From Solirubrobacter deserti (GTDB taxonomy: Bacteria; Actinomycetota; Thermoleophilia; Solirubrobacterales; Solirubrobacteraceae): DNA of 64,000 nucleotides. The stretch is from the NCBI RefSeq assembly GCF_003344625.1, contig NZ_QPKJ02000005.1:558001-622000 (forward strand), read 5' to 3'. Positions 321 through 56,736 of this stretch are shown here, one piece after another (position 1 is the stretch's first letter; each line of letters opens with the position of its first letter). The translations under genes were made by a program, and so were the position numbers. The notes beneath the pieces are model-generated. The model did not search any database. It saw only the letters and a list, made by a program, of their open reading frames with translations, and was not told where the DNA came from.

Positions 321-1318
321 GGGCCGCGCTGGTCCATGCGCCGGGCGACCTGCGCGTCGAGGAGGTCGCCGATCCCGTCGCGGGTCCGGGCGAGGCGGTG
401 CTGCAAGTCGGCGCGGCGGCGTCCTGCCACACCGACGTCAAGTCGCTGCTGCGCGGGCATCCGTCGCTGGGCCCGTTCCCGGCGCGGCTCGGCCACGAGT
501 TCGCGGGCACGATCGAGGCCGTCGGCGAAGGCGTCGACACGGTGCAGGTCGGCGACGTCGTCTTCTGCGGCAACTCCGCCCCGTGCGGCGAGTGCCGCCA
601 GTGCCGGCGCGGACGCGAGTCGCTGTGCGAGGACCTGCTGTACGTGCTCGGCGGGTTCGCGGAGAAGGTGCTGCTGCCGGCGCGGCTGGTCGCGAAGAAC
701 CTGCACCCGATCCCGGACGGCGTGCCGCTCGCGCTGGCGCCGATCGCCGAGCCGCTGGCCTGCGCGGTCCACGCGCTGGACGTCGTCGAGGTGCCCGAGC
801 GGGTCACGATCCTCGGCGGCGGCTCGCTCGGCCTGATGCTGTGCGCGCTGGCGGCGAGCGCGGGCGCCAGGCCGACGGTGCTCGACCCGCACCCGGAACG
901 GCTGGAGCTGGCCACGCGCTTCGGCGCCGCCAAGACCGTGATCGCCACGCGCGGGCCGCAGGACATCGAGCAGGGCGGCGACGCCGACCTCGTGCTGGAG
1001 GCCGTCGGGCGCCCCGAGGCGTGGGAGCTCGCCGTTGCGATGGCCGCGCCCGGCGGCACGGTGAACCTGTTCGGCGGCTGCGCGCGCGGCACGACGTTCA
1101 CCGTCCCCACCGCGCGCGTGCACTACGAGGAGGTCACGCTGCTGGGCACTTACCACCACGCGCCCCGCTACCTCGCGCGGGCGCTGGAAGTGCTGGCCGC
1201 GGGCGAGTACCCGTGGGCCGACCTGGTGGGCCCGGAGATCACCCTCGACCAGCTGCCCGACGCGCTCGCCGGCCGCCTGCACGACCCGCAGCCCGCCAAG
1301 TACAGCGTGCGCTTCTAG
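317..1318 (+). CDS. Zinc-dependent medium-chain alcohol/polyol dehydrogenase
   Basis: This is a 333-residue NAD(P)-dependent oxidoreductase of the zinc MDR family, predicted to be soluble. Visible features in order are ASCHTDVKSLL with the first catalytic zinc Cys, GHEFAGTIEAVGEGV with the zinc His and Glu, the structural-zinc lobe CGECRQCRRGRESLC with four Cys, and the nucleotide-binding ILGGGSLGLM near residue 170. An acidic residue in VLDPHPERL suggests NAD preference. Length matches the family (330-350). ATG overlaps the stop of the preceding dehydrogenase, so they form a pair. Its TAG at 1316-1318 abuts the stop of the convergent lipoprotein gene. Sorbitol, threonine or xylitol dehydrogenase are all possible; the exact substrate is unknown. 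Confidence 0.88.
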   Translation: MRAALVHAPGDLRVEEVADPVAGPGEAVLQVGAAASCHTDVKSLLRGHPSLGPFPARLGHEFAGTIEAVGEGVDTVQVGDVVFCGNSAPCGECRQCRRGRESLCEDLLYVLGGFAEKVLLPARLVAKNLHPIPDGVPLALAPIAEPLACAVHALDVVEVPERVTILGGGSLGLMLCALAASAGARPTVLDPHPERLELATRFGAAKTVIATRGPQDIEQGGDADLVLEAVGRPEAWELAVAMAAPGGTVNLFGGCARGTTFTVPTARVHYEEVTLLGTYHHAPRYLARALEVLAAGEYPWADLVGPEITLDQLPDALAGRLHDPQPAKYSVRF

Positions 1319-2072
1319 CAGGGGGCCGGGGCGCCGCCCTCGGTGGTCTGGCCGTAGCCGAACGTCTGACGCAGCTGGGCGGGCGTGGCGAACGCCCAGT
1401 CGCGCCGCTCGAGCGCGCGCTTCTCGCGCGCCGTGAGCGCGACGACGAACGCGACCTGGCCGAGCGCCCCGTCGGCGCGGTGGACCTCGAAGCGCCGGCC
1501 GTCGATCAGCCGGTTGATGCCGTCGAGCACGCAGAGGTCGAGGAAGTCGCCCTGCGGAGCGGCGCGGACCGAGTGCGCGGTGCCGTCGAGCTCGAAGCTG
1601 ATCGTCGCCCGTTCGCCGCGCCAGCGCTCGCGCACGTTGCGCGGCTCGAACGCGCCGCGCGAGATCCGCGCCCATTCCGCGAACGCGCTCACGTAGACGT
1701 CGTTGCCCTCGAGGACGTCGCGCTCGATGTCGGAGAACCACACTCGTTCACGGTCGTACGCGAGCAGCTCGAGCTCGTCGTAGCGCGTCGCGACCTTGGC
1801 CGGCTCCTCCCACTCGCGCTCGTAGGCGGTCTCGATCCGCCGTGCGGCGCCCGCGGCGGGCTCGTCAGCGAAGAAGCCAGCCGCTGGTAGTCGCGCACGA
1901 ACGCCTCGACCGACCGCTGATCGACCGGCGCCTCGGTGGCCGCGTCCCCCGGCAGCGGCGGTGTCTCCTGCGCGTAGCTGCGCTCGACTTCGCGGAGGAC
2001 CTCCTCGTCGCCCGGCTCGCCGCCACCGCACGCGGCGAGGACGAGCGCGAGAAGGAGGACGAGCCGCCGCAC
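1315..2072 (-). pseudogene. Lipoprotein gene interrupted by a one-base frameshift
   Basis: The start at 2072 opens a clear lipoprotein signal (MRRLVLLLALVLAACGGG, lipobox Cys) followed by an acidic helical stretch ending at DYQRL. The continuation, beginning GFFADEPAAG and running to about residue 250, lies in a different frame down to the TAG at 1315-1317. Adding one C to the CC at 1877-1878 (plus strand) would join both parts into a 252-residue protein reading YQRLGFFADE. No known domain is recognised. It follows the cupin gene by 10 bases on the same strand, so it may be the last gene of the metNIQ operon. Either a true frameshift mutation or a sequencing error in a short homopolymer would explain it. 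Confidence 0.6.
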
Positions 2073-2082
2073 GGGCGGCAGC

Positions 2083-2547
2083 CTAGTGTGCGAAGGGCGC
2101 CGTGCGCGGGTCGGCGAGGAGCGCTTCCCACTCCTCGTCGGAGACGGGCTGCGGCTTGTCGCGCGTGCCCTCGACGGTGCAGATGAAGCCGAACGGCTCG
2201 TCGCCCGCGTTGATCCAGCGGTGCGGCGTCCACGGCGGGACCTCGACCAGGTCGAGGTGGTCGAGGTCCACCACCTGGTCGCCGATCAGCGCCTGGCCCC
2301 GCCCGCGGGCGGTGAAGACGACGTGGACGTGCTCGTGCTTCTCCAGGCTCGAGAACCCACCGGGCGCGATCTCGAAGTAGCGCACTTCGAACGTCACGCC
2401 CGCCTCCTCGGACCGCACCAGCGTGTGACGCGAGAGGCCCTGCCAGGCCATGCCCCGGGCGCTGCCGGGCTCGTCCTTGTAGGCGCGGGCGGTGACGCCG
2501 GCCCATTGGAAGGCGGTGGGGTCGAACGCGGCACGTCTCACGGTCAT
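2083..2547 (-). CDS. Single-domain cupin protein
   Basis: A 154-residue small beta-barrel (cupin_2) protein. The first metal motif appears in FSSLEKHEHVHVVFTARGRG and the second in PPWTPHRWINAGDEPFGFIC, giving the usual His/Glu ligand set for a mononuclear metal. Such proteins may be dioxygenases, isomerases or sugar/effector binders, and nothing here fixes the reaction. It starts 4 bases after the end of metQ and is followed closely by a broken lipoprotein gene, so it is probably transcribed with the methionine transporter. A link to thiol or methionine metabolism is only inferred from position. Confidence 0.8.
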   Translation of the reverse strand: MTVRRAAFDPTAFQWAGVTARAYKDEPGSARGMAWQGLSRHTLVRSEEAGVTFEVRYFEIAPGGFSSLEKHEHVHVVFTARGRGQALIGDQVVDLDHLDLVEVPPWTPHRWINAGDEPFGFICTVEGTRDKPQPVSDEEWEALLADPRTAPFAH

Positions 2548-2551
2548 CAGG

Positions 2552-3373
2552 CTAGAAGGCGGGGAGCACCGCGCCCTTGTACTGCTGGTCGATGAACTGC
2601 TTGACCTCGGGCGAGGTGAGCAACTGCGCGAGCTTCTTCACGCGCGGATCGTTGCGCTCCTCCGGCAGCGTGACGAGGAGGTTGGCGTTCGGGTTGTTCT
2701 GCGCCTGCTCGAGCGCGAGGGCGTCCTCGCTCGGGGTGAGGTCGGCTTCGAGCGCGTAGTTGCCGTTGATCACGGCGAGGTCGGCGTCGTCGAGCGAACG
2801 CGGCGTCTGGGCGGCCTCGACCTCGGCGAACTCGAGCTTCTTCGGGTTGTCCTGGATGTCGCGGATCGTCGCCGTCTCGGTGGCTTCCGGCTTGAGCGTG
2901 ATCAGGTTGTTCGCGGCGAGCAGGCGCAGCGCGCGGGCCTCGTTGGTGGCGTCGTTCGGGATCGCGACCTGCGCGCCGTTCGGCACCGACGCGACGTCCT
3001 CGATCTCGCGCGAGTACAGGCCGAGCGGCTCGATATGCACGCCGACGATCGATGTCGCCTTGAAGTTGCGTGCCTTCTCCTGGTCGGCCAGGTAGGCGGG
3101 CGTCTGGAAGTAGTTGGCGTCCAGCTGGCCGTCGACGAGCGCGGTGTTCGGGAGCACGTAGTCCGTGAACTCCTTCACCTCGAGCTCGAGGCCGTTCTTC
3201 TCGGCGAGGTTGTCCTTGATGAAGTTGAGGATCTCGGCGTGGGGGACGGGGGAGGCGCCGACGACGAGCGGCTTGTCGGCCGCGGCGGCGCTGCCGGTCT
3301 CCTCCTCGCCGCCGCAGGCGGCCGCACCCAGGGCGAGGGTGGCGGCGGCCAGGGCAAGAGCGATGCGTCGCAT
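2552..3373 (-). CDS. metQ: Methionine ABC transporter substrate-binding lipoprotein
   Basis: A 273-residue NlpA/MetQ-family protein. The N-terminus is a lipoprotein signal with ALGAAACGGEE, so Cys is lipidated and the protein sits on the outer face of the membrane. The mature part has family signatures: VVGASPVPHAEILNFIK, LPNTALVDGQLDANYFQT and VAIPNDATNEARALRLL. Length is normal. It lies 11 bases downstream of the permease gene, in the conserved order ATPase, permease, binding protein. It captures methionine (possibly also D-methionine or related ligands) for import. Confident in family; the ligand is inferred from the complete N-I-Q gene set. Confidence 0.93.
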   Translation of the reverse strand: MRRIALALAAATLALGAAACGGEEETGSAAAADKPLVVGASPVPHAEILNFIKDNLAEKNGLELEVKEFTDYVLPNTALVDGQLDANYFQTPAYLADQEKARNFKATSIVGVHIEPLGLYSREIEDVASVPNGAQVAIPNDATNEARALRLLAANNLITLKPEATETATIRDIQDNPKKLEFAEVEAAQTPRSLDDADLAVINGNYALEADLTPSEDALALEQAQNNPNANLLVTLPEERNDPRVKKLAQLLTSPEVKQFIDQQYKGAVLPAF

Positions 3374-3384
3374 GGGGGGACCTT

Positions 3385-4047
3385 TCAGGAGTGAGAGAGG
3401 CGCCGGGACACGCGGTCGCCGGCGAACTGCAGAAGCTGCACCAGCAGCACGAGCACGACGACGGTCGCGATCGTGACCTCCGTCTCGTAGCGCTGGTAGC
3501 CGTAGCGGATGGCCACGTCGCCGAGGCCTCCGCCACCGACGGCGCCGGCCATGGCGGAGTAGCCGATGACGCCGATCGTGGTGATGGTCACGCCCGAGAC
3601 GAGTGAGGGGAGCGCCTCCGGCACCAGGACCTTGGACACGACCTCGCGGCGCCGCGCGCCCGAGGCCAGCGCGGCCTCGACGAGGCCGTTCGGCACCTCA
3701 CGCAGCGCCGTCTCGACGATCCTCGCGAAGAACGGGATCGTCGCCAGTGCGAGCGGCACGATCGCCGCCGTGGTGCCGATGGTGGTGCCGACGAGCGCCC
3801 GCGTGAGCGGGATCACGGCGACCAGCAGGATGATGAAGGGGACCGAGCGCCCGACGTTGACGATCGCGCCGAGGACCCGATTGGCGACGCGCGACTCCAG
3901 TTGCCCGCCGCGATCGGTGAGCAGCAGCAGCACGCCCAACAGCAGCCCGAACGGGATCGTGACGAGCATCGCCACGCCGACCATCACGAGCGTCTCGCGC
4001 GTGGCCGTCCACAGCAGCGGGGCCCATTCGCTCCAGCCGTCGTTCAT
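3385..4047 (-). CDS. metI: Methionine ABC transporter permease
   Basis: A 220-residue integral membrane protein with about five to six membrane helices and the EAA-type coupling loop VEAALASGARRREVVSKVLVPEALPSL, typical of MetI. The start is the ATG at 4045-4047, which overlaps the metN stop (ATGA) and begins MNDGWSEWAPLLW. An in-frame upstream extension would run through metN and is rejected. It forms the channel of the MetNIQ importer with two copies of MetN. Spacing to metQ is 11 bases, so all three are one transcriptional unit. Confidence 0.93.
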   Translation of the reverse strand: MNDGWSEWAPLLWTATRETLVMVGVAMLVTIPFGLLLGVLLLLTDRGGQLESRVANRVLGAIVNVGRSVPFIILLVAVIPLTRALVGTTIGTTAAIVPLALATIPFFARIVETALREVPNGLVEAALASGARRREVVSKVLVPEALPSLVSGVTITTIGVIGYSAMAGAVGGGGLGDVAIRYGYQRYETEVTIATVVVLVLLVQLLQFAGDRVSRRLSHS

Positions 4048-4949
4048 ACCGCGACCTCCTTCGGGGTCACGACCAGCGCGCGGGTGACGCGCCGCTCGCC
4101 GATCCGCTCGGTGGAGCGGGCCTCGATCCGGGCGCCGTCGGCGATCGCCGCCGCGAGCCGCTCCTCGGCGTCCTCGAACAGGACGACCTCCTCGGCGTGC
4201 TCGTGCCCGCCGACCTCGACCCGGCCGAGCGACGGCAGCAGGCCGGAGGCGAGCCGGGAGCCGGGCCGCGCGACGACCTCGCCGAGCGGACCTTCCTCCA
4301 CGACCCGCCCTGCGTCGAGCAGCGCGACCCGGTCGCACGCCGCGCGCACGACGTCCATCTCGTGCGTGATCAGCAGGACCGTCAAGCCGAGCTCGGCGTT
4401 GATGCGCCGCAGCAGGTCCAGCACGGAGGTCGTGGTCTCGGCGTCCAGCGCGGACGTGGCCTCGTCCGACAGCAGCAGCGACGGCTCGGACGCGAGCGCG
4501 CGGGCGATCCCGACGCGCTGCTTCTGGCCGCCGGACAGCTGCGACGGGTACGAGCCGCCGCGGTCGCCGAGGCCGACGAGCTCGAGCAGCTCGTGCGCGC
4601 GGCGGCCTCGCTCGGCGCGCCCCACGCCCGCGATCTCCAGCGGCAACGCGACGTTCTCGGCGGCTGTCCGCGAGGTGAGCAGGTTGAACTGCTGGAAGAT
4701 CATCCCGATCCGCCGGCGCGTCGCCCGCAGCTCGGCGCCACCCATGCGCGTGATGTCCGCGCCGTCGAGCGTGATCGTGCCGGCGGTCGGCTCCTCGAGC
4801 CGGTTCACGCAGCGGATGAGCGTGCTCTTGCCCGTGCCGCTGCGCCCGATGACGCCGACGATCTCGCCCGCCGGTACGGAAAGATCGACGCCGTCCAGGG
4901 CGACGACACCGTTCGGGAAGACCTTGCGCAAGCCGCTGATCTCAAGCAT
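4044..4949 (-). CDS. metN: Methionine ABC transporter ATP-binding protein
   Basis: A 301-residue ABC ATPase. Walker A is GRSGTGKST, the Q-loop lies in IGMIFQQFNLL, the signature is LSGGQKQRVGIARAL, Walker B is LLLSDEATSAL and the switch His is in LLITHEMD. After about residue 240 a shortened C-terminal segment corresponds to the position of the NIL/ACT regulatory domain that lets methionine inhibit transport; it is shorter than in E. coli MetN (343 residues), so feedback control may be reduced. It is the first gene of the minus-strand operon metN-metI-metQ-cupin-lipoprotein. Two dyad-symmetric elements lie upstream. Confidence 0.93.
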   Translation of the reverse strand: MLEISGLRKVFPNGVVALDGVDLSVPAGEIVGVIGRSGTGKSTLIRCVNRLEEPTAGTITLDGADITRMGGAELRATRRRIGMIFQQFNLLTSRTAAENVALPLEIAGVGRAERGRRAHELLELVGLGDRGGSYPSQLSGGQKQRVGIARALASEPSLLLSDEATSALDAETTTSVLDLLRRINAELGLTVLLITHEMDVVRAACDRVALLDAGRVVEEGPLGEVVARPGSRLASGLLPSLGRVEVGGHEHAEEVVLFEDAEERLAAAIADGARIEARSTERIGERRVTRALVVTPKEVAV

Positions 4950-50997: not shown

Positions 50998-51752
50998 TCA
51001 ACGACACGCTCACCCTCGCCGAGCGCGCGCTCGTCCGGCTCCCGCGCAACCCGGACATGCTGCTGGCCTTCACGGTCCAGCCGATCATGTTCGTGCTGCT
51101 GTTCGCGTTCGTCTTCGGCGGCGCGATCGAGACGCCCGGCTACGGCGACTACATCGATTTTCTGATCCCGGGCATGATCGTCCAGCAGATCTGCTTCGGC
51201 GGCTTCGCGACCGCGCTCGGGCTCGCCGAGGACATGACCAAGGGCCTGATCGACCGCTTCCGCTCGTTGCCCACCGCGCGCGCGTCGGTGCTCGCGGGGC
51301 GCACGCTGGCGGACGTCGCCACCAACCTGCTGTCGGTCGCGATCCTGCTCGCGACGGGCCTGGTGATCGGCTTCCGCTTCGACGCGGGCGTGCCCGAGAT
51401 CCTCGCCGGCCTCGGCCTGCTGCTGCTGTTCGGCTACGCGTTCAGCTGGATCTTCGCGCTGATCGGGATGAGCGTCTCCTCGCCCGAGGCGGCGAACGGC
51501 GTCGGCTTCACGCTGATCTTCCCGATCACGTTCATCTCGTCCGCGTTCGTGCCGGTGGCGTCGATGCCGGCGGGCCTCGAGCAGGTCGCCGAGGCGAACC
51601 CGGTCAGCGTCGTCGTGGACGCGATCCGTGCACTGTGGCTGGGCGGGGAGATGGGCAACAGCCTGTGGCTGAGCGTCGTCTGGTGCTTCGTGCTGATCGC
51701 GGTCTTCGCGCCGCTGGCGGTGCGCAAGTACCGGATGAGCGCGTCGGCCTGA
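50994..51752 (+). CDS. DrrB-type ABC-2 exporter permease
   Basis: A 252-residue membrane protein with six predicted helices, starting at ATG 50994 (MINDTLTLAERALVRLPRNPDMLL). The ABC-2 signature FRSLPTARASVLAGRTLADVA and the late NPVSVVVDAIRALWLGG are characteristic. The long in-frame extension upstream through sufD and the WYL gene is a shadow frame. With the ATPase it probably exports a hydrophobic compound under control of the WYL regulator. Confidence 0.93.
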   Translation: MINDTLTLAERALVRLPRNPDMLLAFTVQPIMFVLLFAFVFGGAIETPGYGDYIDFLIPGMIVQQICFGGFATALGLAEDMTKGLIDRFRSLPTARASVLAGRTLADVATNLLSVAILLATGLVIGFRFDAGVPEILAGLGLLLLFGYAFSWIFALIGMSVSSPEAANGVGFTLIFPITFISSAFVPVASMPAGLEQVAEANPVSVVVDAIRALWLGGEMGNSLWLSVVWCFVLIAVFAPLAVRKYRMSASA

Positions 51753-51991
51753 GCAGATCGGCGGCGCCGTCGGGGTACCGGCGGCTGCCGCCGAGCGTGC
51801 GCGGACTCGAACTCTCGGAACCTGCATGCGGACAGGACGACTTGCGCGGTCACCCGATCGGCGTAAAGTCCGAGCGGATTTCCGTCTGTGGCGCAAACCC
51901 GGCTACAGTGCGGAGATCGACGCTGGACCGCGCGCGGCGCGGCTCCGTCCGTCCTGGCGCTTAGCCTCCATAGATCGCCCTTTCTCGACAC

Positions 51992-53146
51992 GTGACCGCC
52001 TCCAACGACACCGCTTTCGGATCGTTGCGCGCGGAGCAGTGGACATCGCAGTGGTACCGGGCCTTGCAGTCAGCCGAGGTGAACGCCGGGGTGGACCTGC
52101 GTGCGGAGGCCGGGCAGTCGGTCTTCAGCCTGCTGCTGGCGATCTCGGTCGCGGCACACCGCGGGCGCGACGGGCTTCCGGTGGAGCTGCGCCTGCCGCG
52201 GGAGCCGGCTGGCCTTGACCAGTTGCGGCGTTGGAACTTCCAGTCGGTCTGCGAGCTGGCCACTGGCCGTTCTCTGCGCCGGTTGGTGGCGCCGGTCGAC
52301 CACGCGCTGTTCGGCACACCCGCACCAGAGCGTCCGGCGGCAAAGGTGGCCAGCGGTGTCTCCGCGTTCATCGACGAGCTGGAACGCGACGCCTTCTTCG
52401 GGCTGACCGCCTACCGGCTATACGAGCGCGGCGCTCTAACGCGGATGATCCGATCCGAATGGGAACGGTGGCGACACCCGCTCGTTGCCCGCCTGGTGCG
52501 CCCTGTCACGGCGGACATCGCCCGCGACGTGGCACGCGTGTTGGTGCACGAGTTGCTCGCCAACGTGATCCAGCACCCGGACGCCACCATGGCGGTGGTC
52601 GGAACGTCGGTCGACTCGTCGCCCGCTGGCGAGCTTCGGCTTGTGATCGCGGTCTGGGACGATGGCGACAGCGTCGTTGACACGTTGTCGAAGATCCCGG
52701 TCGACCAGCTGCGCGCAACGGATGCCGACGACTGGGCCGCGGACATCACCGACGAGTTCATCGTCGACGCGCGCGGCTGGACCCCTGCGGCGACGTACAT
52801 TCCGGCGAACTGGGTTCCGCCGGCCGGTGCTCAGGGCGGCGACCTGTTGCTGTCCGCCCTGCTTCCAGGGATCTCGCGCAAGCACGTGAGCGATGACTTC
52901 CCACAGGTTGACCGGCCGGAACCAGTCGCGTGGGAATCGCGGCGCGGATTCGGGCTGCACGCGCTCTATCGCAGCGCCATCAACGCGTTCGGCGGCACGG
53001 TATCCGTGCGAACTAGCGACTTCTGGCTGCGGCTGAGCGCCGGCGAGAAAGCGTTCCAGTACCGGGCGGACATCGATCGCGTCGACGAGCCGCTGTTCGG
53101 AAATCTGGTTTCGGTCGAGCTACCCCTCACGCCAGCTCGGCTCTGA
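51992..53146 (+). CDS. GHKL-type ATPase, first gene of an unrecognised three-gene module
   Basis: A 384-residue soluble protein. The C-terminal half is a GHKL (HATPase_c) domain: N-box VLVHELLANVIQHPDA (about 184-199), G1 IAVWDDGDSVVD (about 217-228), G2 GFGLHALYRSAINAFGGTVS (about 319-338) and closing strand LVSVELPL. There is no phosphorylatable H-box or receiver. The N-terminal 110 residues have an alpha/beta pattern with LPVELRLPREPAGLDQLRRW that could be STAS-like. The start is GTG 51992, after a 239-base gap in which I see no gene. Codon use is less GC-extreme than in neighbours. It is followed 3 bases later by the second module gene. Role inferred: an ATP-driven sensor or regulator. 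Confidence 0.8.
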   Translation: MTASNDTAFGSLRAEQWTSQWYRALQSAEVNAGVDLRAEAGQSVFSLLLAISVAAHRGRDGLPVELRLPREPAGLDQLRRWNFQSVCELATGRSLRRLVAPVDHALFGTPAPERPAAKVASGVSAFIDELERDAFFGLTAYRLYERGALTRMIRSEWERWRHPLVARLVRPVTADIARDVARVLVHELLANVIQHPDATMAVVGTSVDSSPAGELRLVIAVWDDGDSVVDTLSKIPVDQLRATDADDWAADITDEFIVDARGWTPAATYIPANWVPPAGAQGGDLLLSALLPGISRKHVSDDFPQVDRPEPVAWESRRGFGLHALYRSAINAFGGTVSVRTSDFWLRLSAGEKAFQYRADIDRVDEPLFGNLVSVELPLTPARL

Positions 53147-53149
53147 CTG

Positions 53150-54880
53150 GTGGCCGACGGCGTTCGTGTCGTCGCCTGGTCGGTGGTAGTCCACCTCGGC
53201 CAGGCGGTTACTCAGCCGGTTTCGGAGAGCCGTCGCAAGGAGCACCGATGGCTCGCGCGTTCGTTGAACGGGCTGGGCGTCGACCCGTGGTTCCGACAGG
53301 ACTCCGCGTACCTGAGCGTCAAGCAGCTCAGCACGGAGCCCACGCGGGTGCAGCACTTCGTCGAACCGCCGGCCGATCTGCCCGACGACGCCACGATCAT
53401 CCTCGACCTCAGCGACGCCCCGTACGAGTTGCTTAACGAGCCGCTGCTCGCGGGTCTCGCCGATGGCGTCGGACGCATGCTGGCCGGTGGGCCGCGCACG
53501 ATCCTGATCTTGCTTTGCAAGCTTCCGCCGGAGTCGCTGCTGTGGGAGTTCCTCGAGCGCGACACCGCCGCGGACGGGACCGGCCGCGTTGTCGTGCTGG
53601 ACGACGAGGGCGCGCTGCGGAGCTTCGGTCACGGAAAGCGCGGGTTCACGCCGCTGATGCGCGACTGGCCGGGGCGCCGCCGACAGGCCAGCGGGACCGC
53701 CAACGAGCGGTTTGAGCGACGCGTTGTGACGCGCCTCGGGCACTTCGCCACCGCAGACGGTGAGCGCTGCACACCGGCGTGGCAGGACATGCGCGGGGCA
53801 GTCGGAGAGCTCACCGAGTGCTTGTCCAATTGGATCGATCAGACCGGGGCGGCGGGCACCCGCATGATCGTGTGCGGTCCGTACTCCCGGGAGTTTCGCG
53901 TCGCGGTCGTCGCCGCGGCCGCCGCCTGCGGCGGAGACGCCGGGTTCGCGGCTACTCCCGACGAGCTCGAGGACACTGCGTCCGGCGTTGGCAACGTGCT
54001 GGCGTTCGAATACGTCCGCTCGGGCGACACTCTGGGTGACTTCCGGCGTGCGTTGCCCTCGTGGGGCGTCCCGGTGCGAACCCGCGCGCTCGCCGTCATG
54101 GCCGCGCCTGCGGCGTACGGTCTCAGGCACCCCGACCTCCAGCTCGACGTGCTGGCCGTGCGTGGGCACGAAGACGTGCAGCGGAGCGCGTGTGCACGCT
54201 GTCTCGCTTCCGCTCCGCGACTCGAAGATCCGTCGCGTACCGATCCGGGAACCGGCATCGATGCCGCGACGATGTGGTGGATGCTCGACCGCGTTCCCTG
54301 GGGTCCTGAAGGGTACGGCCCGCCGGAGCACGCGCGCTACCCCTATATCCCCGACTTCTCGGCTGTCTTCGAGCGGTTCGGTGATTGGATCGCGCTTAAG
54401 TACGAAGAGCTGCTGAAGGGCATCGGGCTGGTGGACGACCTCGTCGTCGTTTGCGCCGCCGAGCCGGCGGTTCGCGATCTGGTCAAGCGACTCGCCTCTC
54501 GCTTCCAGAACCAGCTGGTGCCGGTCGAGATCGAACGCGATGTCATCGATGCCGTCGCTGCCGACGCGGCGCGAGCACACGGGCTGGCGTCCGCGCTCGA
54601 CGACGTGAGCGACGCAAGCGAGACGATCCCCGCCTGGCGGCGTCAGCTCGCCGACCTCGGTGGCCGCGAGACGGGCACCGGGCACCGGCTCGCGGTGATT
54701 GCGCTGGACGAGTTCAACGCGTCGGGCGCAACCGCGCGCGGACTGACCACGCTGCTCGGCGCGTTCGGCGTGACGCTCGACGCCTACGTTCCCTTCGTCG
54801 ACTGGTCGGGCGGGGAACATGTTCCCGGGCGCCCAACGTGGTCGCTGTACTCGTTCTACTACCCGCGCCCCACCGGATGA
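53150..54880 (+). CDS. Protein with two phosphoribosyltransferase-like loops, second gene of the module
   Basis: A 576-residue soluble protein of no named family known to me. Two segments look like the PRPP-binding loop of type I phosphoribosyltransferases: NVLAFEYVRSGDTLGDFRRA (about 281-300) and VIALDEFNASGATARGLTTL (about 515-534). Each lies after a beta-strand and before the usual helix, so there may be two such domains. The N-terminal 180 residues form another alpha/beta region (TIILDLSDAPYELLNEPLL). A C-x2-C pair occurs in RSACARCLAS (about 346-355). The start is GTG 53150, and its stop overlaps the third gene by 4 bases. Catalysis on PRPP is a hypothesis; binding of PRPP or a nucleotide as a signal is equally possible. 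Confidence 0.65.
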   Translation: MADGVRVVAWSVVVHLGQAVTQPVSESRRKEHRWLARSLNGLGVDPWFRQDSAYLSVKQLSTEPTRVQHFVEPPADLPDDATIILDLSDAPYELLNEPLLAGLADGVGRMLAGGPRTILILLCKLPPESLLWEFLERDTAADGTGRVVVLDDEGALRSFGHGKRGFTPLMRDWPGRRRQASGTANERFERRVVTRLGHFATADGERCTPAWQDMRGAVGELTECLSNWIDQTGAAGTRMIVCGPYSREFRVAVVAAAAACGGDAGFAATPDELEDTASGVGNVLAFEYVRSGDTLGDFRRALPSWGVPVRTRALAVMAAPAAYGLRHPDLQLDVLAVRGHEDVQRSACARCLASAPRLEDPSRTDPGTGIDAATMWWMLDRVPWGPEGYGPPEHARYPYIPDFSAVFERFGDWIALKYEELLKGIGLVDDLVVVCAAEPAVRDLVKRLASRFQNQLVPVEIERDVIDAVAADAARAHGLASALDDVSDASETIPAWRRQLADLGGRETGTGHRLAVIALDEFNASGATARGLTTLLGAFGVTLDAYVPFVDWSGGEHVPGRPTWSLYSFYYPRPTG

Positions 54881-55968
54881 GCAGGCCCGGCCGGGTACAG
54901 ATCGCACGAGCCGCCTGCTTCGAGCTCCTGGGCCGCGTCTTCGCGAACCCCGACGCGATCAAGCAGGAGATGCTTCGCCGCGACTGCTCATCCTGGATCG
55001 AGGATCTCGACGAGCCAGGGCGGGTGTGGGCCGAACACGCGCTCGCGGAGTCCTACAAACCTCCAAGACAGAGAGCCTCGTTGATGCATCCTCCGACGCC
55101 ATCCGCTCCCGATCGCGAGCGCATCGACGTGCTTCTTGTCACTGTTGTTCCGAACGAGGCGGAGGCGGCTGAGATCGTGTTTGACCTCGGACGCGACCAT
55201 CCGGGGGCCCGCCGGCGGGAAGACGGCCGCAGGTACCACGAGGCATCGCTCGAGACCCATCGCGCCGGTCGGCTCAATCTGGTGCTGACGAATATTGGCG
55301 AGTCCGGCAACACCACCGCGCAGGGGGCCTTGCGCTCGATGCTGCGTCTCTACGAGCCCGAGTTGGTCTTGCTCGCCGGCATCGCAGCCGGCCGGCTGGA
55401 CAGCGTGAAGCTCGGTGATCTCGTGCTCCCCCGCAAAGTCTGGTACCTCGAGAAAGGGGCCAGCCTTCCCGATGAGTTCCGGCGAGAAGCCCAAGAGCGG
55501 CGACTTCCTCAGCGGCTCTACACGCTCGTCGGAGAGCACCGAATCCGGAGAACCGGCTTTTACGAGCAACTGCAGGAGGCGCTCACACAACTCGACGACG
55601 ACCAGCTACCTCCGGGCGTCAAACGAACCCACAAACCGGGATTTGACTCCGACGCGTCGGTCGTGGCCTCCGAGAAGCTCCTGCGCGACGGCTCCCTACG
55701 CAAGCTCGCCTCCGCCGAGGGCGTCGATCGGAAGATCAAGCTGGGCGATATGGAGTCGTGGGGACTCGTGCAGGCCGTCGGCAGCGGCAGCGTCGGCGAG
55801 TGGACTGGAGACAACCCGCCGGAGTGGATGGTCGTGCGTGCCGTCAGTGATTTCGGCGAGGTCGACAAGGACGACAATTGGCAGATGTTTGCCTCGGTCT
55901 GCGCACTCGTCGGCGCCAGGCATTTCTTGCAGGTGACTTACGAGCGTCGAAAGGACGCCGTTCTGTAG
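54877..55968 (+). CDS. Purine-nucleoside-phosphorylase-superfamily enzyme, third gene of the module
   Basis: A 363-residue protein. After a helical N-terminal segment of about 75 residues (CFELLGRVFANPDAIKQEML) comes a PNP/MTA-SAH-nucleosidase fold: DVLLVTVVPNEAEAAEIV, LTNIGESGNTTAQGALRS, LLAGIAAGRLDSVKLGDLVL, LGDMESWGLVQA with the catalytic-type Glu, and MVVRAVSDFGEVD with the Asp that protonates the base. All active-site positions I can judge are present. Enzymes of this superfamily break N-glycosidic bonds; members fused to or encoded beside signalling domains act as immune effectors that destroy adenine nucleotides (for example in Detocs). ATG 54877 overlaps the preceding stop. Confidence 0.82.
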   Translation: MSRPGRVQIARAACFELLGRVFANPDAIKQEMLRRDCSSWIEDLDEPGRVWAEHALAESYKPPRQRASLMHPPTPSAPDRERIDVLLVTVVPNEAEAAEIVFDLGRDHPGARRREDGRRYHEASLETHRAGRLNLVLTNIGESGNTTAQGALRSMLRLYEPELVLLAGIAAGRLDSVKLGDLVLPRKVWYLEKGASLPDEFRREAQERRLPQRLYTLVGEHRIRRTGFYEQLQEALTQLDDDQLPPGVKRTHKPGFDSDASVVASEKLLRDGSLRKLASAEGVDRKIKLGDMESWGLVQAVGSGSVGEWTGDNPPEWMVVRAVSDFGEVDKDDNWQMFASVCALVGARHFLQVTYERRKDAVL

Positions 55969-55971
55969 CCG

Positions 55972-56736
55972 TCAGGTGGCGAGCATGCCTCCGTCGACCG
56001 GGAGCACGATCCCGGTCACGTAGGACGAGGCGTCACTGGCGAGGAAGAGGAGCGCGGCGGTCAGCTCCTCGGCCTCGCCAGGCCGGCCCATCGGCAGCCG
56101 CTGCTGCTGGGCCTCGAGGTAGCCGTCCGGATACTGCTCGGTCATCTCGCTCGGGAAGAACCCGGGCGCCAGCGCGTTGACGCGGATGCCCTTGCGGCCC
56201 GTCCACTGCACGGCGAGGTCGCGCGTGAGGCCGATGATCGCCGCCTTGCTGGACGCGTACGCGGCCTGTGGGAGCCCGGCCGTGGTGGAGCCGAGCACCG
56301 AGCCGATGTTCACGATGCTCGAGCCGGGCGGCATCACGCGTCCGCAGGCCTGGGCCATCCAGTAGGAGCCGTTGAGGTTGACGTCGATCACCTGGCGGAA
56401 CTGCTCGGGCGTCTCGCGTGTGGCCGGGTACGCGGTGCCGATGCCGGCGTTGTTGACCAGCACGTCGACCTTGCCGAACGCGGCGACGGTCTCCTCGATC
56501 ACGCGCGTGCAGTCCTCGGGCCGGGACACGTCGGCGGGGACGGCGAGGCAGCGGCGGCCGAGCTGCTCGACGGCGGCGCGGGTCTCCTCCAGTCGGTCGG
56601 CGCGGCGCGCGCAGATCGCGATGTCGGCGCCGGCCTCCGCGAGCCCGGTGGCGAACGCGGCGCCCAGCCCTGAGGAGGCGCCGGTGATGACGGCGACCTT
56701 GCCGTCCAGGCGGAAGCGGTCGAGCACGCTGGGCAT
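55972..56736 (-). CDS. SDR-family oxidoreductase (sugar or 3-oxoacyl reductase type)
   Basis: A 254-residue classical SDR. The cofactor motif is VITGASSGLGAAFA, then VLVNNAGIGTAYP, a catalytic Ser in IVNIGSVLGST, the YASSK motif in AAYASSKAAIIGL, and the closing VTGIVLPVDGGMLAT. CARRADR after strand 2 suggests NADPH. It resembles FabG-like and gluconate/rhamnose dehydrogenases. TAGCGT (minus strand, 56748-56743) ends 6 bases before the ATG, so it is probably transcribed separately. A LacI regulator lies just upstream on the same strand and may control it, hinting at a sugar substrate. Confidence 0.9.
   Translation of the reverse strand: MPSVLDRFRLDGKVAVITGASSGLGAAFATGLAEAGADIAICARRADRLEETRAAVEQLGRRCLAVPADVSRPEDCTRVIEETVAAFGKVDVLVNNAGIGTAYPATRETPEQFRQVIDVNLNGSYWMAQACGRVMPPGSSIVNIGSVLGSTTAGLPQAAYASSKAAIIGLTRDLAVQWTGRKGIRVNALAPGFFPSEMTEQYPDGYLEAQQQRLPMGRPGEAEELTAALLFLASDASSYVTGIVLPVDGGMLAT

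Follow-up and report, generated by a model that had tools for sequence, protein, structure and literature searches.

The genome of Solirubrobacter deserti (7.55 Mb) carries an operon of three open reading frames (ORFs) that, judged from its sequence, looks like an anti-phage system of new make-up. The operon lies in a window of 64,000 nucleotides (the whole stretch analysed; contig NZ_QPKJ02000005.1, positions 558,001 to 622,000) and encodes a GHKL protein (gene 1), a protein with a phosphoribosyltransferase (PRTase) fold (gene 2) and a nucleosidase of the PNP superfamily (gene 3). With a probability of about 0.6, we consider it a three-component defence module that is rare, moves horizontally and acts by abortive infection, made up of kinase, regulator and effector. 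This reading draws on a recurring gene order, the folds of genes 1 and 2, the immune PNP class of gene 3, the presence of one relative in a defence island, patchy distribution and occupation of a genomic slot. The original prediction, that a sensor, a nucleotide regulator and an effector could form a defence or stress system, holds for the conserved unit, the immune-type PNP and one island, but misjudged the type of gene 1. The layout it described is confirmed by the ORF coordinates: all genes are on the forward strand, with a 3-base gap between genes 1 and 2 and a 4-base ATGA overlap between genes 2 and 3. The features, including the loop motifs for phosphoribosyl pyrophosphate (PRPP), are as follows.

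51992..53146, + strand: gene 1, 384 amino acids (aa), GTG start; reduced STAS-like N terminus (residues ~31-91) and SpoIIAB-type GHKL kinase/ATPase domain (~130-380)
53150..54880, + strand: gene 2, 576 aa, GTG start; alpha/beta N-terminal third, degenerate first PRTase-like unit (~218-316) and C-terminal type I PRTase fold (~371-568)
53993..54031, + strand: first PRPP-loop-like motif of gene 2, residues 282-294, with one of the acidic residues missing
54695..54733, + strand: second PRPP-loop motif of gene 2, residues 516-528, near-canonical (DEFNASGAT), matched by Pfam in homologues
54877..55968, + strand: gene 3, 363 aa, ATG start; N-terminal part of ~80 residues, then PNP-superfamily nucleosidase of the CBASS/Detocs effector type
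51749..55973, no strand: segment without counterpart in congeners, bounded by the points where homology to three of them breaks off and resumes

Effector, kinase and regulator

Gene 3 is predicted to be a PNP of the immune-effector class, not the salvage class. An intact nucleosidase fold of the PNP superfamily with a helical N-terminal add-on had been proposed, and the PNP assignment is borne out by a PADLOC match to the PNP-superfamily effector model (6.3e-25) and by the similarity of the gene 3 family to two CBASS-type PNP effectors (hhalign 98.7 and 97.1) and a Detocs-like PNP of Sphingobium (95.8). One of the CBASS-type genes adjoins a gene annotated as CBASS oligonucleotide cyclase; for the other, which has a nucleotidyltransferase gene two genes off on the opposite strand, we infer the CBASS label, and the Detocs-like label was read from gene order (hypothetical, response regulator, PNP). 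Among six housekeeping PNPs (E. coli Mtn, Amn, Udp and DeoD and the two other PNPs of the host genome), Mtn scores 9.1 and the other five 0.1-1.1, and general and housekeeping PNP models match gene 3 at 6e-5 or weaker. The motifs GIAAG, DMES (E293) and VSDFGE (D325) resemble those of the immune PNP effectors compared; we take their Glu and Asp to be catalytic, as in 5'-methylthioadenosine/S-adenosylhomocysteine nucleosidases. The N-terminal part (~80 residues versus ~240 in the CBASS PNP) has no similarity to its counterpart (0.1).

A search of plasmids with gene 3 gave 52 records, all of <60% identity, and four neighbourhoods were read. The third gene of the Detocs-like operon on Sphingobium plasmid pTomRC1a (L070:4548-5792) is annotated as 'histidine kinase' yet matches PNP effectors. 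A Leptolyngbya plasmid protein of 965 aa (L069:5188-8085) has two separate PNP-effector-like stretches and is followed by TPR genes.

Gene 1 is assigned to the SpoIIAB switch-kinase type, with a GHKL domain of the anti-sigma-factor kind and a STAS-like N terminus. Its GHKL motifs are an N-box (E187/N191), a G1 box (D223-G225) and a G2 box (G319-G321), and SpoIIAB occupies the top rows of the structural comparison. In the STAS comparison its N-terminal window scores 43.8 (hhalign), the highest among all windows tried, and STAS_2 matches occur in the relatives P0015 (1.2e-4) and G462 (0.02), whereas the remaining 9 of the 11 have none. No HisKA-type match was found in 10 members of A2, the gene 1 family, at E up to 1. 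The earlier description, a sensor ATPase of GHKL type without a phosphoacceptor, was right about the fold and the absent HisKA match but missed the SpoIIAB-type kinase and its STAS-like N terminus, which make switching by protein phosphorylation more probable than a bare sensor ATPase.

The C terminus of gene 2 is a type I PRTase fold, and the protein is probably a PRPP- or nucleotide-binding regulator. The claim of a double PRTase-like protein with two PRPP-loop-like motifs stands for this C-terminal fold and its near-canonical loop; for the degenerate first unit it was overstated. A STAS domain in the N-terminal third was plausible by eye (LDLSDAPYELLNEPLL), but its scores do not exceed that of an unrelated window and it is left unproven. 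At E up to 1, Pfam gives no family for genes 1 and 2 and only PNP_UDP_1 for gene 3, and PADLOC gives no model for gene 2.

Recurrence and genomic slot

The original prediction had named genes found mostly apart, or tied to purine salvage, as signs of a wrong reading. Instead, every genome with a match has genes 1, 2 and 3 side by side in one order: that of the window (G000), one of the same species with the same operon (G406) and G462, which belongs to a different family within the class. In the window, the genes beside the operon are not purine genes. The module is rare and patchily distributed. Across overlapping genome samples, the gene 1 profile matched 2 of 396 genomes of the phylum (G000 and G462) and the gene 2 profile 3 of 399 of the class (G000, G406 and G462); an order-level scan matched 2 of 151 (both one species), a scan of the order of G462 1 of 129, and a single-protein search with gene 2 1 of 296 in the phylum. 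Among database proteins, one gene 2 relative and one gene 3 relative lie on contigs of 15,622 bases, and one gene 2 relative and one gene 1 relative on contigs of 8,715; the equal sizes suggest that the genes are linked there, which is unproven.

The G462 operon (L009, - strand, 10136-8850, 8828-7083 and 7068-6055) encodes genes 1, 2 and 3 at 31, 30 and 22% identity. Its surroundings comprise a PD-T4-6-like protein kinase, a type IIG restriction-methylation enzyme, a type II methyltransferase, a methyl-directed restriction enzyme and an OLD-family nuclease, and it therefore sits in a defence island; nearness to such islands, proposed earlier as a check, is thus found in this one relative. Four ORFs at 588-4071 and one at 10294-10908 of L009 have no PADLOC match. 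For the G462 gene 3, the nearest match is the gene 3 family (hhalign 87.2; BLAST E 6.8e-7 in a set of 15; Pfam PNP 6e-4); it was missed by the A3 profile at E 0.001 and recovered as the next ORF.

Two neighbours of the G462 module are recorded separately. The Ser/Thr protein kinase (L009:4245-5588, - strand; PADLOC PD-T4-6, 3.1e-48) lies just downstream and may be a neighbouring system or an accessory part. A 204-aa protein without Pfam match (L009:10294-10908, - strand) is encoded on the same strand 158 bases upstream of gene 1; a counterpart is absent between gene 1 and the permease gene in the window.

Two of five other congeners (G350 and G435) lack the operon by profile search. In G350, G435 and G775, homology to the window stops at 51742-51748, just before the permease stop at 51752, and resumes at 55974, at the stop (55972) of the short-chain dehydrogenase/reductase gene. 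Between these flanks they carry 2.28-2.69 kb of other DNA with a gene for a long repetitive protein (736 aa in G350 and 884 aa in G775; seen by DNA similarity in G435). G774 has no match across the module either; the slot comparison covered these four congeners, with G773 left out. Because congeners fill the slot otherwise, the module has most likely taken the place of another gene in this lineage; its ends carry no repeat. No relative was found in viral contigs scanned with genes 1, 2 and 3, in phage records searched with gene 2 only, or in plasmids searched with G462 genes 2 and 1 and P0018. The slot protein itself (L034:1106-3316 and L036:331-2985) has no Pfam match and shows, by eye, internal repeats and a Thr-Pro-rich stretch.

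Proposed mechanism and alternatives

In the proposed mechanism, gene 1, a putative STAS-GHKL switch kinase of the SpoIIAB/CapK/VapK type, would sense infection or damage. Gene 2, the PRTase-fold regulator, would restrain gene 3; it is also the most likely partner or substrate of the putative kinase. Once freed, gene 3, a PNP effector of the Cap17/DtcC kind, would cleave ATP or a related nucleotide at the N-glycosidic bond, and this cleavage would stop the cell. VapKSC is the precedent for a kinase of this sort, and Detocs for an ATP-cleaving PNP effector. A more specific version is put forward only tentatively: the SpoIIAB/CapK-type kinase may act on a PRTase-fold reader of a PRPP or nucleotide signal that gates the ATP nucleosidase, with the PRTase as safety catch or as an antidote that rebuilds AMP.

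Several observations weigh against a defence module. Full loci are known from two independent instances only, and the operon's neighbours in the window are metabolic and regulatory genes, with no defence genes among them; PADLOC matches on three of seven flanking genes (WYL, ABC and methyltransferase) were judged generic. Foldseek alone returns no significant row for the gene 1 or gene 2 model. When compared with 30 STAS domains from the host genome (hhalign), N-terminal windows of gene 2 score at best 9.6, versus 17.4 for an unrelated C-terminal window; a window-by-window comparison with gene 1 gives at best 2.7, and that in another part, and the place where a STAS acceptor Ser is expected reads N, N, T, N and R. 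At E up to 0.1, none of the PADLOC models matches the G462 gene 3, and the first 75 residues of its product have no similarity (0.1) to those of the gene 3 family. Because this product has His in place of the catalytic Asp and is missing the first Glu motif, it may be inactive, as a decayed copy or as an effector that acts by binding, without hydrolysis.

Alternative roles for the same proteins are less probable. Gene 2 might be an antidote or recycler whose PRTase puts the freed base back onto PRPP, turning adenine into AMP; dormancy caused by gene 3 would then be reversible and gene 1 would set the balance, which we regard as unlikely. Similarly improbable is a toxin-antitoxin-like stress or dormancy switch that senses PRPP or (p)ppGpp during starvation or DNA damage and is not primarily anti-phage: the G462 copy lies in a defence island, the operon is rare and occupies a slot, and the effector class of gene 3 occurs in CBASS and Detocs. 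Domain names alone (GHKL regulator, PRTase and nucleosidase) would fit ordinary purine salvage or its regulation, but this is very improbable, given the distance of gene 3 from the six housekeeping PNPs, the two other PNPs of the host genome, the absence of purine genes next to the operon, the two congeners that lack it by profile and the two more without a match in the slot region. The abortive-infection module remains the preferred reading.

Comparison with known systems

Detocs kinases have a histidine-kinase phosphoacceptor, unlike gene 1. The receiver-domain protein of Detocs, which we take to be named DtcB, has no counterpart in the operon, whose gene 2 is PRTase-like; the earlier distinction from Detocs is sustained, as no receiver family is found in genes 1-3 (Pfam, E up to 1) or in the three G462 proteins. 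The PNP version of Detocs resembles the operon in its three genes, a GHKL-fold protein and the same PNP class (PMC11249213, PMC9966839), and its effector splits ATP into adenine and ribose-5'-triphosphate (PMC11249213).

CBASS with a PNP effector of the Cap17 type shares the effector class (PMC10952713) but has a CD-NTase cyclase gene, whereas no nucleotidyltransferase family is found in the three proteins. Component C of the PADLOC candidate PDC-M60 matches gene 3 (PDC-M60C, 1.3e-13, 407-aa model), while for genes 1 and 2 none of the PDC-M60 models gives a match (E up to 1). A PRTase-fold protein is also part of a defence operon in type III retrons with a PRTase effector (PMC12548924), but these have a reverse transcriptase and a noncoding RNA; the three proteins include no reverse transcriptase family, and no Rfam family reaches the gathering threshold in 51000-56500. 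More broadly, defence or conflict systems are known with PNP proteins (PMC7159879, PMC8195603, PMC10952713) and with PRTase proteins (PMC12548924, PMC7824862), and DefensePredictor reports a PRTase in one validated system and an HATPase in one predicted system (PMC13092281).

VapKSC and CapK/CapS, with their STAS-GHKL kinases, resemble the operon in architecture: in a row of three genes, a SpoIIAB-like GHKL kinase comes first, then a partner, then a toxin (PMC13373217). In VapKSC, the kinase is thought to release the toxin from its partner, with ~2-log protection against phage Bas42 (PMC13373217). Its toxin is the PIN RNase VapC, whereas the third gene here is a PNP nucleosidase, and its partner is a small STAS protein with a conserved Ser/Thr, compared with a 576-aa PRTase-fold protein; no helix-turn-helix was found in the operon when set beside VapKSC/CapK. 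The operon has one defining feature of Detocs, the PNP, but lacks the receiver, the cyclase of CBASS and the PIN toxin of VapKSC. In the literature searched, with closed-licence papers mostly outside it, no system was found described in which a PRTase-fold protein stands between a kinase of the SpoIIAB type and a PNP effector. A SpoIIAB-type kinase with a STAS-like front and a PRTase-fold controller would extend the modular principle recently demonstrated for CapK and VapKSC, and the operon makes it testable whether sensing of the nucleotide pool (PRPP) gates an ATP-destroying effector. PNP effectors are known behind cyclases in CBASS and behind two-component kinases in Detocs; here, such an effector stands behind another type of controller.
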